A DNA stretch of 64,000 bases. Source: Mugil cephalus. Taxonomy: Eukaryota > Chordata > Actinopteri > Mugiliformes > Mugilidae. The stretch's first letter is position 1. The number at the start of each line of letters is the position of its first letter. This document shows positions 139 to 21,670 of this stretch, piece after piece. The notes below the pieces were generated by a model, which worked only from the letters and a program-made list of their open reading frames with translations, did not search any database and was not told the DNA's origin. The translations under genes were made by a program, and so were the position numbers. Location: contig NC_061781.1 in the NCBI RefSeq assembly GCF_022458985.1, forward strand, positions 17,453,001-17,517,000, read 5' to 3'.

Positions 139-3100
139 GGGACCGAGGTGAACCTGGACCCCCAGGATTCCGAGGCCTCGTAGGACCTGATGGAGTCCCA
201 GGAAGACCAGGAGCTCCGGGGGATCCTGGCCTCCCAGGACCTACAGGATACCAAGGTGAAAAGATTCAGTTTAGCTAAAAGTAACCATTGGCGTTGGAGG
301 CACTGATCTACATACTATCTACTTCATAGTCTTCATCCTCCTTCCCAACACTGATGTTTTGGGAGACATTCCTGTATTTGTCAAATGCATTTACTGACAC
401 TAAATTATTTGTTTCTCAGGTTCTCCTGGTGCCAGAGGATACCCTGGTGTGGATGCTCCCCCCGGGGAGAAGGGTATAGCAGGATTCAATGGCTTTCCTG
501 GATTACCTGGCAGGAAAGGATTCAAAGGAGATCAAGGTCAATTTGGATACAGGGGGCCTGATGGAGTTTCTGGGATAAAAGGTATGAACTGAATGTTTAT
601 ATCATTCAAGGCCACACATTAAACACTAAATGTCTGTGTTCAAATTACTACTGTAGCATGGATGGAATGTTTGCAACTGCAATTTAAGCGTCCTGTGTTA
701 AATTAAATTATGTTTATCTACATGGTAATTTAAACAAAGGTGTAATTTATAGTTAGTAAGTATAGTAGAGAAAGAACACATACAAGACTGTATGCTGCTG
801 TCAATAGGCTATTGAAATATATTGTAATGGCGTTATATTATGTCATAGTTCTGAATTTAGCTTTTCAAATTTAATTTCTGCCATTTGGCAACTATGTCAT
901 TTATAGTAATTCTGACACAGAAATCTTGATATTTGTGATATGCTTTTTTTTTTTTTTTACACAGGAGTGAAAGGAGACCAAGGCGATATGGGATTTGTTG
1001 GCTCGACTGGTATAAAAGGAGAAAGAGGACCAGTGGGTCCTAAAGGAAACACTGGACTCCCAGGTTAACGATACGCTCATATTTAACTCATCACTTGTTG
1101 TCACATATTGGACGGGCTTTTGTGTTTTTTCTTTTTTCCTTCAGTCTCAAATGATACATCTATTCTGCAGGTGTTGTTGGGATCCCTGGCAGCCAGGGTC
1201 CTCCTGCAATTCCTGTCAAACTTCCAGGAGAGAGGGGTCCTCCTGGGCCTCGGGGTATACAAGGACCAAAGGGTGTTAAAGGGACACCGGGGCCACATGG
1301 CCCCACTGGGGACGCAGGTTAGTAATTCTTATCAAATATTTGCTGATGGCTGTAGCTCAGGTGGTAGAGTTGGGTTGGTGTCTTGGTTAAGACACTGAAC
1401 GCTTGACTTCTCTTGATGGCGGCAGAAGTACTTGCATGACGCTGTTGGTGTTTGAGTAAATAAGAGTCAAAAATGATAAGGTGCTCTATAAAACACATAT
1501 GATAAGTGCATTTAACTTCATTTTTAACATATCTGCACACATTATACAGCTCACCCACACATGTGTCTTGTTACTCTACAGGGTTCTTGGGACCCTTTGG
1601 GGAAAAAGGCATGCCGGGGATTAGTGGCACCCCAGGAACGCCTGGATTCCATGGAGATGTTGGACAAATCGGCCACCGTGGTCTACAAGGCATGGAAGGT
1701 GCGTCTGACACTGTGGAGAAGTTAAAGGATTAGGTCCATAAACCCAGATTAAAAGATTAACAGTAGGCGGAGATTTAAAGAGAGTCCCAGTTACAAAGAA
1801 GTTTTTGATTGTTGTTTTTGTGAATGTCGAATAAAACCACTATGTACTTAACTGTTAGCAGACTATAAAGGGCCATTTGTATTATGCTAAATAAATTCTC
1901 CGCTCTGCTTTAGGTGACCGTGGCCGCCCTGGTATCACTGGGTTACCCGGTATGCCTGGCCGCAGTGTCAGCGTGGGCTACTTGCTGGTGAAACACAGTC
2001 AGTCAACTGAGACACCCATGTGTCCAGTGGGTATGTCTAAACTGTGGGACGGTTACAGCTTGCTGTACCTGGAGGGCCAGGAAAAGGCCCATAACCAGGA
2101 TCTTGGTAAGTCAGAGTAATCAGTAACATTGCTCATACAGGTTATTGCATTCGGTAACTATTCTTTCATAGTGAACTGCAAGGTAAGGTGCTTAAATCCA
2201 TGCAGTGTGTGGAACTGCTGTACTGTGTGAAAGGTTTAGGCACTAAAAGCAAAGGAGGCTTTCAAAAATAATGCAAAGAGTTTGCTCAGTTCTGTCTCAG
2301 TCAAAGGTCTCTTTCTTATTGTGTTTCCAATAGGAGTTAGATTTGCTGTAACAGCAAGTGTACTTACTGAAAAAAGATGCATTTTTTCTATTGAAAACTA
2401 TAGAAGAGATGATTTATTTCATCATCTAATCTAATTGTGCAAGCCAGTTGAGCTTTCATAAAGTAATCAGGCTCTATCCCTGAAGGAATCAACTATGTGT
2501 AAGGGGCAGAGCGATTCATTCCCTTTGAAGATTTGATATAAATCTGGGCGAAATCTCACTAAATGTGAGAAAATCTAAAACCAACGTTGGATCCGATCTG
2601 GCGCTTAGAGTTTAAACGGTAAAACTTCAGAGATCAGAGAAGCTCGATGTTCCCGAAATCCCCTCAAAAAACAGCCAAACAGCTGGAACAAATGACTGGG
2701 GAATGACTACATTTGTAGTGTGGCTATGCAACATTTGGAAGAGGAAATAAGACATTGTTGTTAATGCAATTTTTTGCATTTTATTGCACTGATGTGTTGA
2801 GTTTTTTATTTTTTATTTTGTAGCTGCAATATGTCTCTGGACCTGTTAACATGACCAGTAACTAACTAGTGTTAGATACTTAGACATCAATAAGCAGAAC
2901 TTTGTTTGTATAGAACAGCAGTGTAGTTATCAGAACATCTCCATCTATAAGATCACAGTACAAATGTTACATACATCATACATACAGTAAATGAAAGGAA
3001 ACAGAATATTAGTCTACGAACCACCAGTCTTTAATTTTTAAACAAAACACCTTCTATTCAGGATATGATATGTTGATTTATTCTCCCCAGGTTTGGCTGG

Positions 3101-4776
3101 CTCCTGCCTCCCCAAGTTCAACACCATGCCCTTCCTGTACTGCAACCCCGGAGACATATGTTACTACGCCAGCAGAAACGATAAGTCCTACTGGTTGTCC
3201 ACGACCGCCCCTCTCCCGATGATGCCTGTAGAAGAGGGAGAGATCAAACCCTACATCAGCCGCTGCTCAGTGTGTGAGGCTCCGTCGGTCGCCATAGCGG
3301 TTCACAGTCAGGACATCACCATCCCGATGTGTCCCCAGGGCTGGCGCAGCCTGTGGATCGGCTACTCCTTCCTCATGGTGAGCGAGACTTTAAACATCAG
3401 TGGTGGAATTTCACACATGTCGCTCCCATGTTGACTTTCTTTTACATTTTACTTTTTCAATATAAACGCTAAAAAACCAGAGAAGGCTATTTTTGTGTGA
3501 AGGAAAGACTTAGAAGTTACTTCATTAATAGACAAACATGAAATGATTGTTAGAACAGGAAAATCAGGTGTAGCTTTTAATAAGCATTGCTCAAACAGGA
3601 GAAATCCATTGACTGCATTATTTTCTGCTGAGGAGTACATAGTCTCCCTGATCATGAGAAAGAAGGTGGTTTTACTGACCCCTGCAAATTCTCCATATGT
3701 GGGAATGTCAGCTGCATACTTTCTGATAGCGGGGAACTGCATTTGCACTCTCATCTTATTTTATTTTTTTATTTGTTGGGGGGACAAGTTATGGAGCACT
3801 GTTTTAGAGTAGCAGCGTTGGACTAAAGGGTTACAGGCTACATTTATTCACATGTTCGATACCGAACTGAGCGAAATTTAGGCTGGTATCGGCGATACCA
3901 GTCTGATACCGATATTTCCAATACCGATATATTTCTGTAAATACACCCTAACGTGCCTGGTAAACCTAAAAATAGTAGTGTATTTCAAATCATATCTTCA
4001 TAAAGAATACAAGACATCAGACTAATTTAGCTAATACAACGAAAGAAAAACAGTGGACACAATCATACAAAATATGTGAAAATGCTCAGTAAGCAAAATA
4101 ATAAGACAATTAAAAAAAATAAGAACCACTATAATGAAAACTTCTGCATCTCAATTCTCCTTTTGTGTCCTCTTCTGTCCACCACATCATAAACACCTCA
4201 TATTCTGTGTTGTGGATTAACCTGAGGTGTGTCACAAGGTTTGTTGCGCTGCCAAAACTGAATAGTTTAGTTACTTTCCACTTTGTTCCCACATTACCTC
4301 GTATCGAAGGTATCGGTACATCGATTTGAGTATCAATTTTAGAGCTTAAAGAACTGGTATCGGAAGTATCGATATTTCAGTGTCGATCAGCACATCACAA
4401 ATCTTGAGCAGGCACCCAATGTGCTCCCCTGCAGTATAAATTGGCACGCAATGTTACATCCATGGTGACGAGACAGTGTCGTTTGGTAAATTAACTCTGC
4501 CATAAACGTTTGTGCCTGCAGCACACAGCGGCGGGAAGCGAGGGCGGAGGTCAGTCCCTGTCATCACCCGGCTCCTGCCTGGAGGACTTCCGCACGACAC
4601 CGTTCATCGAGTGCAACGGGGCCAAAGGCACCTGTCACTACTTCGCCAACAAGAACAGCTTCTGGCTAACCTCCATAGACAAGTCGTTCCACGCCGAGCC
4701 AGCATCAGAGACGCTCAAAGCGGGCCAGCTGCTGTCGCGCATCAGCCGCTGCCAGGTCTGCATGAAGAACTTGTGA
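139..4776 (+). CDS. col4a2: Type IV collagen alpha-2 chain, 3' part (8 exons)
   Basis: Network-forming collagen of basement membranes; alpha-2 pairs with alpha-1 and its NC1 domain drives trimer and network assembly outside the cell. Exons read as 139-255, 420-581, 965-1063, 1171-1317, 1582-1698, 1914-2105, 3091-3377 and 4522-4776, all GT-AG, collagen exons in phase 1. The first five and the start of the sixth encode Gly-X-Y repeats with short interruptions (for example [10 protein letters not shown] in exon 2 and an AIPVKLP break in exon 4). From about 1957 the tandem C4/NC1 domain follows, opening GYLLVKHSQ and carrying [33 protein letters not shown] and the end [11 protein letters not shown]. 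These fit alpha-2 better than alpha-4 or alpha-6, and rab20/naxd/ing1/ankrd10 next door match the human COL4A2 neighbourhood. Partial: the 5' part lies left of the window. Family certain; alpha-2 very likely. Confidence 0.93.
1346..1516 (+). mobile_element. tRNA-derived SINE fragment in a col4a2 intron
   Basis: It starts with a tRNA-like head containing a Pol III A-box (TGTAGCTCAGGTGGTAGAG), then a stretch like TTAAGACACTGAACG, and ends with GTGCTCTATAAAACACA and a CATTTAAC tail. This order (tRNA head, GACACTTAAC-like body, GCTATATAAATACA-like tail) is typical of widespread fish tRNA-derived SINEs. The B-box region is missing, so it is internally deleted. It lies between coding exons 4 and 5. 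Confidence 0.6.
3855..4395. mobile_element. Non-autonomous DNA transposon-like element rich in GATACCGATA motifs
   Basis: Both ends hold clustered copies of a GATACCGATA-type motif in opposite orientation (about 3858-3935 and 4300-4385), around an AT-rich core with no long coding frame. The arrangement resembles MITEs common in fish. Exact ends and target-site duplication could not be fixed. It lies in the last col4a2 intron, between 3378 and 4521. Confidence 0.45.
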
Positions 4777-5350
4777 GGGACTCGCAGCAGGTGGACGCTG
4801 GCAGAAAGAAGTCGCTCCGTTAGCGGCGGTGTAGTGTCATCTCTCCATCCGTGCACTAAACCCATGAAACAGCGTTGGATCTGAAACACTCGCTTAGATC
4901 AGTGTCAGTGGAAAACTTTCAAAACTTGATCCACAGAGCTCAGATATACAGTGACTGTGTGATGCCTGGAGATCCACTGTAGATAAAACAGGAGAAGCCC
5001 CACAACGAAAAAAAAAAAATCTGCACTGTGGCAAATATGTTTGTGTTAAATATGGTTTGGTGCTTACTTTTTTTTTTTTTTTTAACTTATTACCTCATCT
5101 ACTATGTCACATTGTTAACTACCAGAGACCTACACTACAGCTCAACCAAAGATGCACATTTATATATATATATATGCACCGCTTCTGATTTACTACATGT
5201 TTCTTTATCGTTTTAGGTTTAGGGTTAAAGCCACTAACACTGCTTCTCTGAATAATTTAAAGGTAAACGGTTGATACTATTGACAGTATTATCCTGCTTT
5301 GACTTCATTGCTCTGAAAAACTATTTTTTAATAAAGTTACAGTAAGCTGT
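4777..5350 (+). other. col4a2: col4a2 3' UTR with poly(A) signal
   Basis: Non-coding sequence after the col4a2 stop. The first good AATAAA is at 5330-5335, about 555 nt after the stop, so the transcript probably ends near 5350. A short (TA)n run lies at about 5161-5174. No other gene is visible before the rab20 3' UTR. Confidence 0.6.
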
Positions 5351-5799
5351 TAACTTGTTACGCATATTCAACTACTGCAAATGTCATCTATATATATATT
5401 TTTTCCATTTACCATATGATCACAGCAATGCACTGATTCTTCTTCTTTCTTGTAGTTTTTTTTTGGTCTGAATAGACTTGACCCCCCGTGAATGTGTCTT
5501 AAATGTTTGTCTTATCTAATACTCGCCACACCCCAGGACAACAGGACATGTTTTCAACAACTATAAACACTTTGGATCAGAGGTCTGACCTTGCCCCGGT
5601 CTGATCCCGAGTTAATGTTTAACAGTTTAGAAAGTAGGTCACCAACTCTGCTCCGTATCTCTGAAAGTAAACAGATCGATAAGACCAGGAAAATTAGACA
5701 ACATAATTTTTAATTGTAATATAATTATGGTTATTTTCATTACATGATCGATTCATTGGATTGTAAAGATTAAATGTTGTTTGTTATACTTCTGTTTGG

Positions 5800-6355
5800 T
5801 TTATTTCCTGTTTGATTGGACAGAGCAGGGATACTGCAAAATAAAAAATCTTTATTATAACAAGAAGCTTAAAATTCGACAAATGGTACATGGAAAAGTA
5901 CCGGTAAAACACAGACATGGGTGTCAGAGTTAGTAACAGAGCATTAAAGTGAAACGTGATTAACAAAGTAAGTACAATAAACAACTGTGCAATGTGCCTC
6001 GAAGCTGAAAATTAGTGCTGTTGAATTCTTGGGACTCTCGTAGCGGAACGCTTACAAATAGCAGTGATTGGTTTCTTTGGGACACAAGTGCAGTTTCAGT
6101 CATTAGAGGTTTGAAAACATAGTTAGTTATGTCCCTTCCTTACAAAGAAATACTTAAAACACTACGAGCTCTATTCTGAGGACCATCATCTCCACAGCAT
6201 CAAGAACACATGTACTATGTGCTGCCAGGAGGTTTTTGATGCTTTTGGCTGCAGTCAAGGCAAAAAAAAAAAAAAAAGGTAGTACCATTATACAGATCTG
6301 GTGTTCAGGCCTGATAGTCCTGTATCTGTGAGCCTCTTTGCGTCTCTTTAGCGTG
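5800..6355 (-). other. rab20: rab20 3' UTR
   Basis: Non-coding sequence downstream of the rab20 stop on the minus strand. Reverse-strand AATAAA signals occur at 5851-5856 and 5800-5805. The rab20 and col4a2 transcripts are therefore tail to tail, their likely ends about 450 nt apart. An A-run at about 6261-6277 (T-run in the transcript) is the only low-complexity feature. Confidence 0.5.
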
Positions 6356-9300
6356 CTAGCAGCAGGAGGACCTGCCCCGCTTGCTGCTGACCCTGCACTC
6401 CTCCAGATCCACTGTAGGAGACTCCTGGTTCTGATGTCTCTTCCTCAGGATGGAAGGCAGCACCAGGTCGAACAGCGTCTCGAACAGAGCGTCCACGTTA
6501 TAGCCCGTCTTGGCGCTCGTCTCGAAGCACATCTTCTCGGCGGGCAGGCTGCTGTTTTCATCCAGGCCCTTATAGCGCAGTATTCTCCCGTAGAGACCCG
6601 CCGCATCCTCGTACGTCACCTGCTTGCGAAGCATCCCGACGGAGAGGGACGTAGGGGAGGCTGGGGGCGTGGGGCAAGCGGAAAGCACCTCTGGTTCTGT
6701 CCTCTCCTCCTCGCACTCAGTTCTGTTCTCAGACTGTGCGTCTGAGTCCTGGGAGAGGTGGGCTTTAGGGTCCGTGAGGTCCGCCTTGTTGCCCACGATG
6801 GCGTAGATGCAGTCATGGTTGGCTGTATCGGTCAGGGACAGGAAGCGCTCCTCCAGCTCAGCTAGGCTCTGCCAGTTGGTGACGTCGTACGTGAGGACGA
6901 CAGCGGCTGCACCTCGACAGTACATGGAGCCCAACCCGTGGAACTGTTCCCGGCCTGAGAAGACAAGGGAGGGAGGTCAGCAGCTCAACGCAAACTTCGA
7001 AATCAGTCATTCTGTATGAGCAGCGCTGCAGAACGATAAGACAGTCAGCAGTTTGGAAACAGGAACGAGCTTTGTTGTTGGAATATGCAGGATTATTGAA
7101 AGGGCACATTGTGTGAGAGCACATTCCCGCTGTGGGGCATGTCCTGGTACCAGTGGGCAGTTAATTAAATACACAAAGCTAAAACTAATGCAGTGTAATA
7201 CAACAGTCTAAACAATAAATCCAGAGAGATGTGTACCGCATGAAGTTGAGTAAATCAGCAGTTCCCCGTTATTTTCCCTCATCTAAGAAAAACTTTCAAA
7301 AAATCGGAACCAAATTGCTGTGATCTAAAACTGTCATAACAAAAAACAAATAACCAAACTTAAAATGACTCTGCAGACAGGAGGAGAGGCCCTTTGCGTA
7401 GGCCTGGTGACTTCTTGACCTCTCTTTGTCACGTCTGTTTTTTCCATTACTATCCGGATTGTAAGCACGTAGCTTTCTGTGTGTGCCAACACATATAGCC
7501 TAACTTTCTTTGTTGATACTGATGAGTCACACATTTCTCACAAATGTTGTTTCATTCTTAACATAGTGAAGTTGTGACAAATAGAGGGAACCTAGATGAA
7601 CTAGTCAGCAAGTTGACCAAACTCTCTGTGACCTTTAGCTTACTAGCTTCATGTGAACCAAAACAAATATGCAGTTTATCTTTTCAAATATGTGTAAATA
7701 TATATTTTTGGACTATCACTTTGATAATATTTAACATGTGCATATTTTCTTCTGACAGCCTCCTGATCTTTGGCGACCCCTAAAGGGGGGGATAGGAAAC
7801 TACAATTAATTTATCCATGGCAGGGTTGTTGCACCAGAACACTTAATTTAGATACACAACAAACTGGCAGCTGTGTGCAGCTCTTATTTTCAGCTGCTGC
7901 GTGTTCTCCAACATAAAACAATCCCAAAGATGCTGCGTTAAGCATCACATAAAGCAGAGGAAAGAACGAACGTGAAGTGTCATTTAACTCTATGGTTATC
8001 AATCCTTTACACACTGACAGCTGACGTGACAGCTAAGCCCTCCTTGTGCAAGTCTTTTGAAAACACTGGTTAACGCAAGTTTGGAAAAGTTGGGTTGACA
8101 CATGGACAGTCAAGTCTTCCTGTCATGACCCATCATGTGACTAGTAAGAGGAACAGGCTAGGCCGCTGGAAAGACGGCGCCAGACTTTGAAACCGAACTG
8201 TAGCTTAAGATTAACATTATCAGAGGGAAAAATAAGCAGCAGGCAAATGTACAGACAGCCCTCCTAAGTGCCACTCGTCCACTGGTCCGTGTTGAAATGA
8301 CTCAGCACCGATCGGCCATTTCTCTGCCTCAGTGACTAAACTAAACCCAACAGGGAGCTGTCACAGAGGTCGAGGAGTTCTGGAACAGAGACAGGAAATG
8401 GCTCACTGGTGACAGGGCCAGCATTTCCTTATCTGTGGGGCTCAAAGTTTTTTTTTTTTTTGGAGGGTGTACTTCTTGAGCAAGAAGGCTTACTGTGATA
8501 CATGTTTACACAGTACTGGAATGTAGCACAGTTCTGAGCTTGTTCATTCACAGGCTAACGACAGGCAGGCTAAATTAGCTTGTTTAAGAGAAAATTAATT
8601 ATAGGTCGCCAAGGCCAGCGTTTTCAGTATTTGTTTAGTAAGTCTTTGTATAGTTAGCTGCACTGTAACAGGCCAGAGCAACATGCTGGTTGAATCTGGG
8701 ACAAGTAACAGAACTAACTAAAGCTTCAACTGACCACATTCACCACTGTCAGTTTCATATGAGAGTCTTTAAAGAAAAAAAACTCTGCTACAGTTTGCTT
8801 TCCGTAATAGCCTAGAGAATAATGACTGATCTGCATCCATGTCTAACAATAACAGAATAATAATTTTCTATAGTCAGCAGAAAACAATCGATTCTAGTTA
8901 CATTAGCTATGGTTTAATTTTTAAGTTTCAGTTTCGCAGAAAGATTATTTCAGCGGACGTTTACACGTGAACACAGAAGAAGACTTTAAGGTTTAACAAC
9001 TAACAAAGTAATCGTACTTTCTGACGATAACATAAAGTTCAAACTGACCTTTCATGTGAGGCACGATTCAACTTTTTTTGAACAAAAACCGCAAAAGATT
9101 TTAGGAACTGTTGTTATTACTAAAGGCTTTTTCTCATGCAGATATAAACAGTCTTATTGTTTTTGTTTATTAGCCTTTATTTAACCAGGTCGATCCCGTT
9201 GAGATACAATGACCTCTTTCCCAAGGGAAGCCTGGCCAAGATAGCGGCCTAGCAAAGCTGTGAAACAATTACTTTCACAACAACACAGATAAAATACATG

Positions 9301-12507: not shown

Positions 12508-13728
12508 TTGTGGTAACCTAAGGGAGTGCAGCTTTAAGGTACTTCCGGGTTGCGGTCGCAGTAGTGATGGGCTGTTCGGCTCTTTTCTGAGAGTCGGCTC
12601 TGTTGACACGGCTCCCAAAGAAGAATCAACTCTTTATTTTTGCATCGTTTATAGCCTAATATTTTAGACCAATACAGCAAATACATATGATTTGCATGTG
12701 GATAAGCGCTTATGCATTGAATGTTTTTATGAGGAGCCTAATTTTGTTTAGTATTTACTATTTCAATAAAACTTTAACTGCACAAACCAATGAACAAAAC
12801 ACTGCAATCAAATCTACAAAAGCAAAAACAGAACCAAAATCATCACTTCCACCATCAATCAGTGGTGGAACTTGCTCTTAATATTATTTTCAACTTGCAG
12901 CGAAGACACTGCTCTGCTATACCTTTAAATGTCTTTAGATTTCAGCATTCATAACTTCCCACGCCTATACTCTCCTCCTCATGTCTGCTGCCGATGTCTG
13001 CTGTCTTACTCAACCACAGCGTCTGTCTGCCTCTCTGCTTTCACATAATGGTGTGATTATAAGTCCTCACATGTGACTGGCCACATGGTTTGCCCATAGA
13101 AACAAAGTTTCGCCCCCATCCTCATGCAACTCGGTGAGCAAAAATGGAGAAAACAATAGTGGAAAGCCGCCTCTCACTCTATGGGAATCGACTCTTCTGG
13201 TTCACTACCAAGCATCGGTTCTTAGAGCCGGCTCTTTCGCTTATGACACATCACTTCTGCTCAGGTGTAGGTGGTTGCTCACTGGTAGTTGACAGCCCGA
13301 CCGAGTACAACTGGGTGTCGGCGTGTCCGAGGATCCCATGAAGGCAACATAAACCGTTTTCTTCCTGTCCTACGGCGCTGGGTTACAGCCTCATGATCAG
13401 GACCACTTGTGTACACTTGTCAGCGCTGAAGCGCGGCTACAGTTTAGGTAAGAGGGACTTCTTATGTGTCGTTGGCTGCAGTTAGACAATGGCAACATGT
13501 CTCAACACATGCAGATGCTCGCCTGTAGCGTGATCACAGCTGCACTGTCGATTGTCGCCACGTTGGTGTGTTTTAACGAGGAAGGTAAAGTGGAGGAAGT
13601 GTTCTGACATGTTTTGTTTGTCCTCGCGATGTTGTAGCTGCAGTGTTAGCCTAAGCCTTGTTTTGGTGGGGCAGTGGACACAGTGGGATGTGTGAACGGA
13701 GGCTTTAGGACCCCGAGGACACCTAGCA
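12508..13728 (+). repeat. Tandem duplication, copy 1 (naxd promoter and first exon)
   Basis: Copy 1 and copy 2 (13982-15018) share a colinear series of matching blocks: GTGCAGCTTTAA, GTAGTTGACAGCCC, GTGTCCGAGGA followed by TGAAGGCAAC, GGTAAGAGGGACTTCT, GGCTGCAGTTAGACAATG, CTGCACTGTCGATTGTCGCC, GCAGTGGACACA and TAGGACCCC. Each copy carries one first-exon candidate of naxd and its flanks. Copy 1 is interrupted by a hAT-like element (about 12565-13256) that copy 2 lacks. Confidence 0.9.
12565..13256. mobile_element. hAT-like non-autonomous element in duplication copy 1
   Basis: The left end reads AGTGATGGGCTGTTCGGCTC and the right end GCCGGCTCTTTCGC then ACACATCACT, giving inverted AGTGATG/CATCACT tips and inverted GGCTCTTT-type motifs. 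It holds no transposase-sized frame. The matching place in copy 2 (about 14020-14040) is contiguous, so this is an insertion relative to that copy. I could not identify a clear 8-bp target duplication, so the exact ends are uncertain. Confidence 0.6.
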
Positions 13729-16700
13729 TACGGGCACTGAGCTAGTTAAAGCAAAACTATGAAAAAAGAAAACAGATGCGCAATATAAAAGTTCCAAAAT
13801 GCAACACTAATCCACAAGAGTTGAGCATAAACACAACAATGAAGTAAATTTACAGCTGTTTCTGTGTCTTGTGTATTGATAGAAAATACACGAGGGCCAG
13901 AAAGATCACTTATGAACTTTCTTAGAAACTGGGTTGTTGGGTAAGAACCAGGTCAAAGTTTTGCCCCAATTGTTGTTCTACCTTGTGGTTCTTAAAAGCA
14001 GTGCAGCTTTAAAAGGTACTACCTTGGGTGTTGCTGCTCATTAGTAGTTGACAGCCCTAAGAGCGTAGGTTGCAGGTGTCAAACATATGGCCCGCGGACC
14101 AAAAGCGGCCTGCCAGAGGGTCTAATCTGGTCAGAGGGATAAATTTGCAACGTGCAAAAATTACATTGAAGAATCAAGCATCAAGAGTATTTATTGTCAC
14201 TATGAGAACATAACGAAAAAATTTGCAGAGACCCCCGGCTTAAAGGCACTCATAAATAACCCTAAAGATTTATTTATTTATTTATTTAACGTTAAATGCA
14301 GTTTTCCCAATAAAAGTAACTGCTGTTGTGTTGTTTAACGCAGTTTTAGCAAGAGTTTAAGAGTGTGGACGCAACACAACACTGAGACATAGAACTATAC
14401 AGAAATTGCACTTTTTTTTCTTAAGAAATGTCCAGTTGTTCATTACATGCTTACATACAAGGGAAGTATTTAGAGTTGTCATTATTTATAGGTTTAATAC
14501 GCGATTGTGTCACTGGTCTGGCCCCCTTGAGATCAAACTGGCGTAGGTGAATTTGGGCATGTCCGAGGAGCCCGTGAAGGCAACACTCGCCCTGCCCTGC
14601 ACTGTTTTCCTTCCTGTCACGCAGAGATGGGTTAGCGAGCTTCACGATCAGGATCATTTGTGTGCACTTGGCAACGGTGATGAGAGAGGCTTGGATTACG
14701 GTAAGAGGGACTTCTGCTGTGTCGGTGGCTGCAGTTAGACAATGACAACATGCCTCAACACATTCAGACCCTCGCCTGTAGCAGCTTGATCGCGGCTGCA
14801 CTGTCGATTGTCGCCGCGTCGGTGCGTTTTGACGAGGGAGGTAAAGTGGTGGAAGTGTTCTGATATTTTTTTTTATTATTATTATTTTGTCCCAACGCGG
14901 TTGTAGCTGCAGTCTTAGCTTAAGCCCTGTGGTGCCTCTCTCCTCCATGTTGGCGGAGCAGTGGACACAGGCGCCTGTGTGGCCGGGGGCTCTAGGACCC
15001 CGCGGACACCTATCATAGGAGGGGGGCCACGGGGCCGGGGGGGGGCCGGGTTAACCTGAGAGGACTGATCAGAGGTCAGTTTGAATCTCCACCAATGAAG
15101 CCAAAGGTTGAGGAGTCGGCATGGGGAAGCTGATCCTCGGTCAGTTTGTTGGAAAGTACCAAACTACGCATTTTGTTATCGACGTGAAAGGATAAACACA
15201 GACGGCTAGGCTGTAGCTGACATTCAAAGAGTTGACCAGAGTCCGTTATTGCGATGATCCTCAAGTTTGGGACCGCAATTGTTCCCTCCTCAAGTCCCCC
15301 TGAGCTGCATAAATGGACGCTTGACGTGGTTTGAGACAGCGGAGCTTTGATACGCGTTAAGAGCAAAAAGATCCAGAGCAGACGTCCACCACAGTCCGCG
15401 GAGTCAACACCTCCATTCAACTCCTCGGGGTGGAGGTGAGCCTGTTTTTTTTTTTTTTTTTTTATGATTTTATTTTTTCTGGACCAGCCATGCAAGCGAA
15501 CACGACGAGGGGCTTCTTGTGGTCGGACGTGGAGACGAGGACCCTGTTGAACATCTGGGGGGAGCAGGACATCCAGACTGCGCTGGATGGGAGCTTCCGA
15601 AACAGCTTTGTGTACCGCGACGTCTCCCGCAGGCTGGGGGCCATGGGCTTTGAGAGGACGCCGGAACAATGCAGGGTGCGCATCAAGAGCCTCAAGAGAC
15701 AGTACCTGTTAGCCAAAGAGGGCAACCTGCGGAACAACGGGCAGTACCACAAGATCTGCAAGTTTTACGACATCATGGAGGGGATTCTGAGCAACCGGCC
15801 GGCTCTTGACCCTCGGGAGTTCATGGACGGCGGGGTGGGAGGAGAGGAGGCCGTGGACGGCCTGGAGGAAGATGGAGAAGACATTCAGGATGCGTTCTCG
15901 GAGAGCACGGGAGAGTGTCCTTACCCGGCTGAGACTGAAGTGAAGTTGGAATACCCGACCGTCCCCATCCCTATTCCAGTGAAAGTGACCGTGGGCAATA
16001 ACAGTAAGTCCTTCTATGCCAATGGATGCTTTTTTTTTTTTTTCTATTAGTAGCATCCCATGATGTTTCACTCTCGTCCTCCCCTTCCTCACAGGCACCT
16101 CAGCAAGGGCAAACAACAGCACCCAGTCCACGAGCAACTCCTCAGCCCGGACGCCCAAACGCCCCAGGAAGCGGCGCGCCAACTTCCCCATGGAGAAGCT
16201 AATGGAGCAGTTCCTGGAGCAGAGCGCCCAGGCCGAGGACAGCTTCTACCGCATGGAGGAGCAGCGGCTGCAGGCGGAAGACCGCCGGCGGGAGGCGGAA
16301 CACGACAGGGAGCTGCGCATGCTGCAGATGCTCGGTCAGATGTTCTCCAGCATCTCCTCCGCGGCCGCTCCCTCCGGCAGGACGGCCGCCGCCGCCCCCG
16401 CCCGCGCCCCCGTCATCTCTAGCGCCTCCCCGTTGCACACGCGCGGCCAGTCCAGCCATCACAGACGCCCTTCGCCCCAGACAGACAGTTTCGTTCAGCA
16501 GAGCCAGCTGTCCGACACAGATCCCCAGACTTTAGGTATTAGTTCCGGTGTCGTGTGTTAAGCCTCGGGGAGGAATGTGTGAAGGCGGAGCAGCTGTTTT
16601 TGTGAAGGCTCAGTCACTCTTGTTATTGTCCTTATATTACACCGTCATAGTGAGCTGCTTGTGTTGATCAACTTTTGTCCCTTTTGAAACTGGATAAACT

Positions 16701-19700
16701 TCTTTATTTCCTCAGTGATAGAACGCTACATGAGGGCCAACTTTGCATCACACAGAGGCATGGATGATGAGATCCTCTCTCTAGTTAAGACCATAGTCCC
16801 TCCGCTGACATCCAAAAAGCACAAGGGACAAGATGGGCGTATTGGGATCATTGGAGGATGCCAAGAGTATGTAAAAAAAAAAAAAAAAAAAGAGTTCACT
16901 GAGAATTTGTAAATGTGTAGAACATTGCCCCTAATTTCTTTTCACCTTCACCTCCCTAAAGCTACACAGGAGCTCCGTATTTCGCGGCCATCTCTGCACT
17001 GAAAGTGGTAAGCGGCCGTTTTGGTCATTAATAATTCACAGAGCTCGTCTTTTTGAGTCCGATTGTGTGACGAAGACTTCTGTTTTGTTTCCAGGGGGCG
17101 GACTTGTCTCACGTGTTCTGCACCAAAGACGCTGCGACTGTGATCAAATCATACAGCCCTGAACTCATAGTTCACCCAGTTTTGTAAGTACAAATACACA
17201 CAGATCAACAAGGGACAGTCTTTAGTACGACCGCTGTGATGCTCAATAAGTGGTATAATCTGTATTAACACTGTTATGATGCTATAGGTAAAATTATAAT
17301 AATGTGTCGGGTCAAAATTTGCAACTGCCTTCAATTACTCTGCTCATTCGGTAAGCTGTTCCTGGAGAGCTTCTGCTTTAAATGTCTCTCGATGTTTTGA
17401 ACGTGTGCTCCCGTGTCGGATTTCAGAGTCTCCGATGAAAATTGATACGACCACAGAGCCTCATGATGAAATTCCGGCTAGAAGTTGACGGTTGTGAAGT
17501 TTGATACACATTTTTGTGTGTGGACTTTACCGACGCCTTCAGACAACGTTTCCAATACGCCACCAGACACCGCAACGTGACAGAATTTGTATTTTTTTTT
17601 TGTTGTCGCAGGTGTAGGAACCCGGTTACCTTAATGAAAACTTGCATTCCATGCAGGTGACCTAATTCCAGGATCCTGCTAGTGAGCCATTATTGACGTG
17701 TCATAGCAAGAAGAGAAATATTTCATCAAATTTCATCGGTTCAGCTCTATTAGGTGTGTCAGTAAATTATTACCAGCGAGCTGACATTCGCTAAAACCCG
17801 AACCCTGAACGCAGCGCAACCTAACTGAACGCAGATGTTATTAAATTTATCAAGTGCATCTGTGCAGTCGCTGCTCTGGCGTGCCAAAATGTCTGCTAAC
17901 TACATGCACCATTGAGTAATACTTCTGAACTGGACAACAACTTCAACACAGCATCATAATCTGCACCCTCTAAAATGACCATAGAGTTGAACAACACCAT
18001 CAATAAATAATAAAAAAAAAATGAAGTCAGATGTTTTATCTACATATGCTTCCAAGAAACAGATTTTCAAAACCAGCGTACATAGGACATGCAAGTAATT
18101 AGATCCACAGAGGCTTGTGCAGATCTCCACTCGTTTCTGTGGGTGCAGTTGACCTGCAAATTTGATCTATAACCAAGTTCCTGTTCGTTATCTTTGCCAA
18201 AGGCTTGAAATAAAAAAAAAACAAGCATTCATCCCTGACTGTTGGGCCTGTTCAGACATTACAGTAAGATCCGGTCTGGGCTATCAGATCGCAAGAGGCC
18301 AGCTTCAGGTACAAACCTGGAATTAATATGCGTCTCCAGATCCCATCTTAGTTTCACGCTCTGTATGCAAATAAACCCCGACATCATCTGGGACGCAGTA
18401 GAATATTTTAACAGCTGCCGTCTCTAATGGATCCGTACCGCCGCTCCAGACCCGAGAACGGCGCTGTTTTATGTGAGTGCGTCACGACTTTGGCAAACGC
18501 GTCGAGTTCTTATTTATTGATCTCCGCCCTGACGTTAGTTAGACCTGCACAGAACTCGGATTTAATTCCAACTCTGGAAGTTTCCATACACACAGTGATC
18601 TCCCGTAATAAAGATAAATAAAGAAATCTGTATCGCGTAACATGCCGCTCCTCATACATCAACGTGACCGACATAGCTAATAAACACAGAATCGCGCTCG
18701 TGTGCTCGTATTAAATGCTTTCGTTTGTAAATTCTTACTTGGATTTCCCTTTTTGTTTTAGTTTGTGAACACCTACTAGGACAGAACATTTTTAAAAGGC
18801 TCTCGTTACCAATGAACAGACGTCACTCAATTCTTTTTCCTTTTCAGGCGATTATTTATAAAAGCTGTGTTTTTTTTTTCCCCCTGAATAAATGAGTTAA
18901 AATCTTTGTTGAGTACAGTCTTTGTTTGTCTATCAAGGGACAGCCCCAACGCGGTGGAAGAAATTGAAAAATGGCTCCCAAGACTGCACGGCCTCGTGGT
19001 GGGACCAGGTCTAGGAAGAGAAGACTCGTTACTGAAAACGGCCAAGGCACGTGGAGTACAATCACTCTCCCTCCCACTCAAGACAGCCCTTTAGGCCGGC
19101 TGCTTGTGCGTTAACGCAAAACCACTTCTTGGACAGACTACAGTGATAAACCTAAGCTTTGAATGCTTGCGGCTCCCCGCAACTGCTGCCTGAAAAATTA
19201 GATATTATTCCCTGAAAATATGGCCGGGAAGTGTAAATTCTTTTTTTTTTTTTTTGTTGTGACATTTTGAGCTTTTTGTTAGTAATGTATACACGTGACA
19301 ATCGAATGTATTGTGATGCAATATGTCTGTGAAGGTTCTCAGTCAGTCAATTTATCCAACGCCTTTTGGATATTTTGACGCAGCTCTGCTACAGAGGTAA
19401 AACTGTATTCCGACTTTAATCCAAGTAATTTAACAAGAATATATATAGATTTTCTGTCAGTGGTGGCATAAAGACAGTGTCACTGTGTGCTTGTGAGGCT
19501 GGCCTCACTTTATTATTATTACTAATAATGTGTTCTGCTCTTTCTTCTAGGAGGTTATTGAGAAGTCCAAATCAAGAGACATCCCTATAGTCATCGATGC
19601 GGTAAGTCTTGATAACATTGAGTGTCAGCTGCTGAGCAGATGGGCTTTTGTTTGCAACAACATCCCGACAAACCTGTGTACGTGTCGTCTGGTTCTTTCC

Positions 19701-21670
19701 AACAGGACGGACTATGGCTAGTCACGCAGCAGCCGTCTGTTATTCAAGGCTACCAGAAGGGTATCCTCACACCTAACTTCATGGAATTCACCCGATTATA
19801 CGAGGCACTGGTGGGTCTCTGTTAATGACGTGTAACGTACAGCGTGGGCCTGTGTGTTCATGCGTGTCCGTCTCGGTTCGTGTGTTTCAGCACCACGAGC
19901 CCCTGAACACCAGTGACCATCAACGCAGCGTCGTGCAGCTCAGCGTAGCTTTGGGAAACCTCACTCTGGTGCTAAAAGGAGAACAGGATCTCATCACGGA
20001 CGGCAGCAAGGGTCGGTATCGAAACACAACGTAATTGTGAGGCCTGCTCAGACGTTGCATTTCAGACATGCATCTGTAAATCGGCTTTGCGCTCTGTTTG
20101 CAAATAAACCCTGACGTCATCTGGGGTTCGGTAGAATATTTTAACAGTTTGTCTCAGATTATAACCAAAACATTCACACACGTGTTAAATACTTTGATTT
20201 GTTAATTCTTACTCGAATTTATTTATGTTTTAGTTAACAGCTACAAGGACAGAATATTAAAAAAGGCTCTCATTATGAACAATCATCACTTACGGAGATT
20301 ATTCTAATCATTTTGCAATCAGCTGTCGTAGGTTTCTTTTCTGAATCTTTCTGAGTTCACACTATCAAACAACAAATGCAGGAACATGTGACCACCTTCA
20401 AATGTGGTCAGAGATCAGAGCTCTCAAATCTAATCTCGGCGCGTCCTGGAGGTTGTTGTTTCACATTCATCACCATGTAAAATCACCCAGATCTGATCTT
20501 GATGCGAGGTCTGAACAGGTCCGTGCACTCTTTAAAGGCTTCCAGCTGAACATTCACTGCATTGTTTTATTTAAATCACTGCTATATATTCTTCTGAGGC
20601 GGTGCTTATCATTATTATTACTATTATTTTTTTTTTCCTTTTGATAACATGTAATTGCATGTTGTTTTCAGTTTACTCATGCAGTTTAGAAGGCAGCGGG
20701 AGACGATGTGGCGGACAGGGTGATCTCCTGTCTGGGTCTATGGGAGTGCTCGCACACTGGGCCCATGCTGCCTCCACGGCCGGAATGATCAGAAGGTGAG
20801 GACATGATGGCATGTTGGAGGGGGGGTGGTACTCTGTCCTAAGCTTGTGTGCGGAATTAGTTTCAAAAATAAAGAGATGTTTCCACAGTCCCAACACAAT
20901 AATCCATCATATTCCTTGAGTAAATGTTACTGGTTATGTGGTCTGACCAAGAGCAGTAAAGACACATTTGTTTCTGTCCTCAGTCCCTTCTCTTCCCTCA
21001 GTGCTCTTCACCACAATGAAACTTCACCAAAACTACTGCCTTAGTTTAATTTTATTCCTATCGGCCCATCATCCTGACAACCTCCAGTCACAGATGTTGG
21101 ACTTTTTTAATATACTTAATACTGTTTTCTAACTTTTTTCTAAGACCTCCAGATACACATTTGTGTTATTATTTCATAGACATGTAGCTAAAATGTGGAA
21201 ACATTACATAGTGTGTGTTATTTTCCCTAAAGCCGTCTGTGTTTTTATACCTTCACCATCTGTCTTGACTTAGGTGACTAGCTGAATATTTAGTTACATT
21301 TTTAATATAAATATTTTGTCAATTATTTGATTAAATCTTCAAAATTAAAATAATTAAATATTTTGATGATCATTTCTGTAAGTCGTTCGTCTAGCGTAAA
21401 TGCTAAGCATTACTCCTTTTCATGTTTGCAAGTAAAACACTGCATAAAGTTGTATAGGCCATGTAATTAGTGTTATATTGCCCCTTTGTTTCCTCATTAT
21501 CTATTTTTTCCTCCTTCAGTGTGAATCCATCAGTAGTTGCCGCGTACGGCGCTTGTTCCCTCACCAGAAAGTGCAACAGTCAAGCCTTCCAGCAGCACGG
21601 CAGGTCCACCACCACCTCAGACATGATCCAGGAGATCGGCTCAGCCTTCAAACAGCTATTTGAAAACTGA
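13497..21670 (+). CDS. naxd: ATP-dependent (S)-NAD(P)H-hydrate dehydratase (10 coding exons, copy 1 start)
   Basis: Repairs damaged NADHX/NADPHX by ATP-dependent dehydration, with the epimerase NAXE. Exons: 13497-13584, 16716-16866, 16962-17007, 17095-17183, 18938-19046, 19551-19601, 19706-19810, 19891-20011, 20672-20795, 21520-21670. Lengths sum to 1035 nt (344 aa) with phase kept throughout. Exon 1 gives a hydrophobic N-terminus ([19 protein letters not shown]), as expected for a signal or targeting peptide. Motifs: [40 protein letters not shown] (147-152) and the family's catalytic GGQGD with Asp271. Exon 5 appears to use a GC donor (CCAAG|GCACGT), which keeps the human spacing; a GT donor 9 nt further on (GGA|GTACAA) would add three residues. 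A second first exon lies at 14750-14840. Candidate AATAAA signals are at 22020 and 22196. Confidence 0.9.
14071..14540. mobile_element. hAT-like element with 8-bp target-site duplication
   Basis: The left end reads CAGGTGTCAAACATATGGCC and the right end GGCCCCCTTGAGATCAAACTG; tips and the GGCCC-type motif are inverted, as in fish Charlie-like hAT elements. It is flanked by exact GCGTAGGT repeats at 14063-14070 and 14541-14548, the 8-bp duplication expected of hAT transposition. It is 470 bp with no transposase frame, so non-autonomous or a deletion derivative. Confidence 0.8.
14750..14840 (+). CDS. naxd: Alternative first coding exon of naxd (duplicate copy)
   Basis: Starts [10 protein letters not shown], continues with the hydrophobic stretch [14 protein letters not shown], and ends RFDEG before the donor GAG|GTAAAG. 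It matches the copy 1 exon ([10 protein letters not shown]...) with about ten substitutions and one 3-nt insertion, so the frame is kept. It ends in phase 1, which fits the naxd exon at 16716 exactly and would give a 345-aa protein. Many differences change amino acids, so each copy may have its own targeting peptide, or one may be decaying while still open. Confidence 0.65.
15019..15050 (+). other. G-rich tract between naxd first exon and nested gene
   Basis: Contains runs of at least three or four G (GGGGGG, GGGG, GGGGGGGGG, GGG) in about 30 bases, a pattern able to form a G-quadruplex. It lies at the right edge of duplication copy 2 and has no counterpart in copy 1. Confidence 0.55.
15490..16561 (+). 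CDS. Myb/SANT-like (trihelix-type) DNA-binding protein nested in naxd intron 1
   Basis: Two exons: 15490-16003 and 16095-16561 (326 aa), joined by a 91-bp GT-AG intron in phase 1. Residues about 8-95 form a Myb/SANT-like domain ([15 protein letters not shown], then [19 protein letters not shown] and [12 protein letters not shown]), the type also seen in Harbinger-derived Myb-like proteins. An acidic linker follows, then a basic NLS-like PKRPRKRR (192-199), a charged helical or coiled-coil segment (about 204-256) and a Pro/Ala/Ser-rich tail. The ATG follows a good acceptor (TTTTTTCTGGACCAG|CC). A donor (TTTAG|GTATT) at 16535 lies just before the stop and is in phase with naxd exon 2. No AATAAA or ATTAAA occurs for about 1.2 kb after the stop. 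It could be an independent gene or an alternative N-terminus of naxd. Function unknown; nuclear DNA binding inferred. Confidence 0.75.
18245..18850. mobile_element. MITE-like element, copy A, in naxd intron 4
   Basis: Starts GGGCCTGTTCAGACATTACA. It shares blocks with copy B: GCAAATAAACCC, CATCTGGG, GTAGAATATTTTAACAG, AATTCTTACT, AGGACAGAA and AAAGGCTCTC. Relative to copy B it has about 265 extra bases in the middle and lacks a recognisable right end. It contains no meaningful coding frame. Confidence 0.6.
20041..20525. mobile_element. MITE-like element, copy B, in naxd intron 8
   Basis: Begins GGCCTGCTCAGAC and ends GGTCTGAACAGGTCC, near-perfect inverted repeats of about 14 bp. It shares the internal blocks listed for copy A, in the same orientation, with an internal deletion. 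No transposase is encoded, so it is non-autonomous; superfamily not determined. Confidence 0.65.

Follow-up and report, generated by a model that had tools for sequence, protein, structure and literature searches.

In humans, the metabolite-repair enzyme NAXD is produced in cytosolic, mitochondrial and endoplasmic reticulum (ER) forms, which arise through alternative starts and splicing on a common core (PMC11715087 and PMC12861718, accessible part of each). Zebrafish naxd has nine transcripts in NCBI Gene, and its RefSeq isoforms 1 and 2 carry longer N-terminal extensions that are not conserved with human NAXD; no targeting peptide is predicted for these isoforms, which are kept in RefSeq independently of annotated genomes (PMC12861718, 2026, accessible part). 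Here we describe the naxd locus of Mugil cephalus, which lies in a 64,000-nucleotide (nt) stretch of DNA—the window—that is part of contig C12; the genome searched comprises 635 Mb in 24 contigs. An earlier inspection of this DNA, referred to below as the original prediction, had placed a gene for a Myb/SANT-like protein within naxd intron 1 and proposed that it may be spliced in frame onto the enzyme as a SANT-NAXD chimera. A real SANT gene is indeed nested there, on the same strand as naxd, and the fused frames are open, whereas the particular junction proposed for the chimera, from 16535 to 16716, has a weak donor and stays at chance level. We give an in-frame SANT-NAXD isoform roughly even odds: the local signals are at chance level, and two outside facts—an open reading frame (ORF) on contig C10 and the zebrafish Naxd extensions—are favourable.

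A SANT gene lies within intron 1 of naxd

Translation of the two coding exons of the nested gene (Table 1) yields a protein of 326 amino acids (aa), composed of a SANT domain (aa 11-97), an acidic linker, a basic patch, a charged coil and a Ser/Pro-rich tail. A free-standing gene is encodable, and its product is likely made. The Pfam profile PF13837 (Myb/SANT-like) matches aa 11-97 with 65.4 bits against a gathering cut-off of 27 (E 6e-18), which places the SANT gene itself well above chance. The GT-1 structures 2ebi and 2jmw match the protein weakly in sequence (E 0.0026 and 0.0068), and DNA binding may be presumed from the family name. Recognised by eye, the basic patch in exon 2 is a candidate nuclear localisation signal; it would be missing from a 486-aa fused form lacking exon 2, which is described below.

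The genome holds at least 59 SANT matches including the window gene, the next-best being 40% identical over about 98 aa, and SANT exon 2 matches nothing else in the genome down to E 0.1. To the extent of this search, the SANT gene is single-copy. A scan of viral contigs in IMG/VR found no fish relatives. We rejected a recent transposon insertion as the origin of the SANT gene, given the lack of close copies and of clear terminal repeats, whereas an ancient one may apply; of the 12 inverted-repeat pairs between 12500 and 16900, T/A tracts take part in 10, and the other 2 are 74-76% complementary.

The NAXD core comprises nine exons (16716-21670) and 315 aa. PF01256 matches it with 183.3 bits over profile positions 2-240 of 242, a complete core, and the closest solved relative is 6efw, an (S)-NAD(P)H-hydrate dehydratase (E 1.5e-70). 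Joined to the mitochondrial-type and ER-type leaders, the core gives proteins of 333 and 344 aa. One naxd intron, 19047-19550, begins with a GC donor, AAG/GCACGT. The gene is single in the genome, with all seven matches at E 0.01 or better (nine candidates scored) falling in the window locus. No processed or second naxd copy was found among these candidates, which makes a retrocopy test of the fused mRNA uninformative, as a processed copy would have carried the junction.

Reading frames joining the SANT exons to NAXD

Ten combinations of leader, SANT exon 1, SANT exon 2 and NAXD core were tested, and in every one the frame stays open as far as the NAXD stop. SANT exon 1, read from the acceptor at 15488, and SANT exon 2, read to 16535, each contain a whole number of codons, and because both can be read as 1-1 exons, in-frame run-on splicing into naxd would be possible. 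Frame checks agreed with the original prediction: the donor at 16535 leaves phase 1, as the naxd acceptor at 16716 requires; the acceptor at 15488, reading CC ATG, is in frame with both naxd leaders; and a 633-aa SANT-NAXD and a 663-aa ER leader-SANT-NAXD protein are encodable without an internal stop. What had been missed is that phase 1 is likewise found at the end of SANT exon 1, whose donor (CA/GTAAGT, score 3.16) is in frame with either SANT exon 2 or naxd exon 2; joined directly to the latter, it would give 486 aa. This phase-1 layout may be partly inherited, as the C10 relative likewise has a phase-1 intron after its SANT exon. Donor scores here and below come from a vertebrate donor matrix.

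Our preferred reading, to which we give very nearly an even chance, builds on the observed gene, domains, frames and single copy. The SANT gene, sitting in the phase-1 intron 1 of naxd and presumably driven by its own promoter, would make a free-standing, nuclear-type protein of 326 aa, and part of its transcripts would run on and be spliced in frame to naxd exon 2. Such a splice would yield the 486-aa form from SANT exon 1 and the 633-aa form from exon 2 via the weak donor. The product would be an NAD(P)H-hydrate dehydratase that binds DNA and has no targeting peptide, possibly with a nuclear role, beside the mitochondrial and ER forms. The ten open combinations, the C10 ORF, the zebrafish Naxd extensions, a long gap in canonical poly(A) hexamers and the alternative starts and splicing of NAXD all speak for this reading.

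Related SANT loci in the Mugil genome

At least 58 SANT matches lie outside the window; 19 became loci, and 23 wider stretches were taken. In nine of these (L022, L023, L025, L026, L027, L028, L038, L040 and L041) the long ORFs around or downstream were read; the remaining 14 were compared with the SANT protein only, and more enzyme neighbours may have been missed there.

On contig C10 (10516500-10522400, reverse strand; L022 reverse-complement 1365-3547, onward into L025), exon 2 of a related SANT gene (PF13837, 70 bits) leads, in a single open frame, into the beginning of an ACC-synthase-like enzyme. After the phase-1 intron, the frame runs through a basic patch, a coil and an 80-codon Ser/Pro/Ala-rich tail before it reaches the enzyme start, with no Met between the coil and the conserved part of the enzyme and no stop before the enzyme. 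In the protein used for searching, which was joined by hand and is incomplete, the enzyme part matches Aminotran_1_2 with 64 bits, and the six PDB sequences it matches with an E-value of 0.001 or lower all bear the name ACC synthase (best E 6e-24). This ORF is likely a precedent for SANT-enzyme joining in the M. cephalus genome, and a SANT-ACCS fusion gene is possible.

A different arrangement is found on contig C6 (L041, reverse strand, reverse-complement 1620-2162 and 4096-8185), where a SANT gene lies ~2 kb upstream, on the same strand, of a pyrroline-5-carboxylate-reductase gene (PF14748); no fusion is claimed for this pair, as the first exon of the enzyme has its own Met. Contig C22 (L024, L029, L030) contains two clusters of SANT exons, near 9.515-9.522 Mb and near 9.742-9.747 Mb; every exon in them is listed on the minus strand.

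Weighing the explanations

Several observations speak against run-on splicing into naxd. The donor at 16535, TAG/GTATTA, has neither A at +4 nor G at +5 and scores -0.91; only 6% of donors simulated from the matrix score as low, and 14% of the GTs in the window (7,855, both strands) score as high. The eight core donors of naxd range from -0.34 to 6.78, seven of them above 0, and the leader donors score 5.69 and 3.92; the naxd donors at -0.34 and 0.33 indicate that weak donors are used at this locus, though both have G at +5. Another phase-1 GT in SANT exon 2, at 16334, scores slightly higher (-0.79). The window has 50 ORFs of at least 100 aa (both strands); a phase-1 GT scoring as high or higher occurs within the last 450 nt of 29 of them, the last 60 nt of 11 and the last 30 nt of 6. 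The 16535 junction, being at chance level, is by itself no evidence for fusion. The stronger donor of exon 1 (3.16 versus -0.91) is the one that normally links this exon, across SANT intron 1, to SANT exon 2. Moreover, the SANT gene has its own stop. That no poly(A) signal follows this stop for ~1.2 kb, as had been claimed, holds for AATAAA and ATTAAA, which are absent for 1,279 nt (16561 to the next at 17840) and whose absence we count in favour of run-on splicing, but not for the variant GATAAA at 16693, the sole one of 15 hexamers sought that occurs between the SANT stop and naxd exon 2; a canonical gap this long or longer follows 16% of the positions on the plus strand and 9% of those on the minus strand. 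Beyond the window, two of the three frames of the GC-rich tail at C10 are free of stops, and a given frame would stay open in 33% of simulations. In the C10 exon, six AGs, four of them in the tail, are preceded by at least 11 pyrimidines in 17 positions, so an enzyme-only form is possible there. A C8 relative of similar layout (L006/L023; gene model deduced from ORFs) likewise has a stop of its own. Finally, the words SANT, Myb and DNA-binding are absent from the accessible text of PMC12861718, which does not describe the zebrafish extensions as SANT. Should the zebrafish extension be a SANT module, the chimera is real and already in the databases; should it not be, the main outside support is lost.

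One rival reading is an ordinary nested gene, that is, an independent SANT gene with its own stop and poly(A) site that makes no meaningful coding input to NAXD and whose phase match is coincidental. We put this at somewhat below an even chance: the complete ORF with its SANT domain, basic patch and coil, the C8 relative, the chance-level junction and the GATAAA hexamer agree with it, and the donor of a putative 5' exon of the gene (15435) can account for the acceptor at 15488, whereas the lack of a canonical hexamer and the in-frame joining of a related SANT gene to an enzyme in the same genome sit poorly with it, and the zebrafish extensions would be left unexplained (PMC12861718, accessible part). 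Rare SANT-NAXD RNAs might also stem from failed termination and be neither translated nor selected, a middle case that overlaps the other readings; the odds we assign do not sum to one. The short gap of 180 nt on the same strand, free of a canonical poly(A) signal, would suit such noise, but the extended zebrafish isoforms, if they are the same thing, are retained as RefSeq proteins independent of annotated genomes (PMC12861718, accessible part), and we consider this account unlikely. The SANT exons could instead be cassette exons spliced from the naxd leaders, giving leader-SANT-NAXD proteins of 652 or 663 aa, or of 505 or 516 aa without SANT exon 2. Although the frames are open and the acceptor at 15488 (CTGGACCAG/CC) has 13 pyrimidines in 17 positions (-20 to -4), like the naxd acceptors at 16716, 17095 and 18938, a DNA-binding domain would come to sit behind an ER or mitochondrial leader, and the SANT gene itself offers a candidate 5' donor, GAG/GTGAGC at 15435. 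We regard this explanation as very improbable, and ER- or mitochondrial-leader-SANT-NAXD forms as unlikely. The 663-aa form has the least in its favour, because it would send the DNA-binding domain to the ER and because the acceptor at 15488 is equally explained by what may be the SANT gene's own 5' exon.

A wider reading that goes beyond run-on splicing at this locus is, in our view, doubtful as a whole. It holds that teleosts have repeatedly added a SANT-coil module to the N termini of small-molecule enzymes, here NAXD and the C10 ACC-synthase-like enzyme, to give chromatin-bound isoforms; that SANT-NAXD would repair NAD(P)H hydrates at chromatin or sense metabolites as a regulator; and that it would correspond to the extension of zebrafish isoforms 1 and 2.

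Surroundings of the nested gene

Just upstream of the SANT gene lies a second tandem copy of the naxd promoter and both leader exons, which may serve as the promoter of the SANT gene. The two copies align in five matched blocks of 82-90% identity, one of 76% and one T-rich block of 62%. In the second copy, the ATG of the mitochondrial leader reads ACG, and the frame of the ER-type leader (14750-14840) remains open. All ten substituted codons of this ER-type leader alter the amino acid and one codon is inserted, so it does not look conserved as a protein. The CpG observed/expected ratio is 0.75-0.78 over 14500-15500 versus 0.61 window-wide, and reaches up to 0.93 at 17000-17750 too.

Translations give the gene order of the window as a collagen IV C-terminal exon, rab20, naxd, ing1 and an ankyrin-repeat gene; naxd and ing1 are on the plus strand, and rab20 and the ankyrin-repeat gene are on the minus strand. 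These last two and collagen IV were named by eye; ing1 has a PF12998 match and PHD-finger matches slightly below the cut-offs.

Table 1 Features of the naxd locus, in window coordinates; a slash marks an exon-intron boundary.
Feature	Position	Strand	Basis and remarks
naxd first exon, mitochondrial-type leader, ends in phase 1	13393..13447	+	Open leader MIRTTCVHLSALKRGYSL; donor TAG/GTAAGA, score 5.7; mitochondrial type by eye
naxd alternative leader with a hydrophobic, ER-type N terminus, ends in phase 1	13497..13584	+	Donor AAG/GTAAAG, score 3.9; ER type by eye
Second tandem copy of naxd promoter and both leader exons (first copy 13320-13730)	14556..15017	+	Matched blocks
Putative 52-nt intron in the SANT 5' untranslated region, own first exon ending at 15435	15436..15487	+	Inferred; donor GAG/GTGAGC, score 5.75
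SANT coding exon 1, ATG at 15490, both ends in phase 1	15488..16003	+	PF13837; frame check
SANT coding exon 2, encoding the basic patch (PKRPRKRR), the charged coil and the Ser/Pro-rich tail; stop 16559-16561	16095..16561	+	
Claimed phase-1 donor to naxd, TTTAG/GTATTAG	16535..16536	+	Score -0.91; weak, chance-level
Variant poly(A) hexamer GATAAA (putative use)	16693..16698	+	Hexamer scan
naxd exon 2, with which the enzyme core begins; acceptor requires phase 1	16716..16866	+	Fitted exon edges; frame check
naxd exons 3-10	16962..21670	+	Fitted exon edges; spliced core. Exons 3-6: 16962-17007, 17095-17183, 18938-19046 (GC donor), 19551-19601; exons 7-10: 19706-19810, 19891-20011, 20672-20795, 21520-21670 (with stop)

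Discussion

In humans, NAXD mutations lead to an encephalopathy of early onset and to premature death; in zebrafish, loss of naxd reduces locomotion and causes early death (PMC12861718, accessible part). In light of this disease and the naxd-null phenotype, the make-up of fish Naxd isoforms matters for the zebrafish model. A zebrafish CRISPR deletion in exon 5 would also remove SANT-NAXD forms, if they exist, and part of the naxd-null phenotype might then not reflect NADHX repair. A chromatin-tethered NAD(P)H-repair enzyme would, if true, link cofactor quality with gene control, and the second case, SANT joined to an ACC-synthase-like enzyme, allows the idea to be tested as a pattern and not just as an isolated oddity.

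Literature searches pairing NAXD or ACC synthase with SANT turned up nothing relevant among the papers listed, which does not show that such pairings are unpublished. The C8 relative resembles the nested gene in its SANT domain, acidic linker, coil on a second exon and own stop, and differs in that no enzyme core was recognised by eye among the plus-strand ORFs of at least 60 aa over 4 kb downstream. The C10 ORF has a SANT exon of this type too, with the phase-1 intron, the basic patch and the coil, and is likewise placed in frame upstream of a small-molecule enzyme encoded by the same strand. At C10 the parts are joined within one exon without intron or stop, whereas the 633-aa SANT-NAXD would require a splice that skips a stop codon, the end of which lies 26 nt downstream of the donor.

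Outside this genome, a point of comparison is eEF1B-delta-L, the long isoform of EEF1D and an example of a switch to a transcription factor: the accessible parts of the sources on it do not name a SANT domain and give the long form for mammals and birds only. Its transcripts and function have been shown experimentally. With its two alternative leaders on one enzyme core, Mugil naxd resembles human NAXD, for which the accessible parts of the sources describe different starts. Unlike the alternative-start isoforms given there, whose N termini are targeting peptides or absent, the candidate N terminus at this locus would be a DNA-binding domain.

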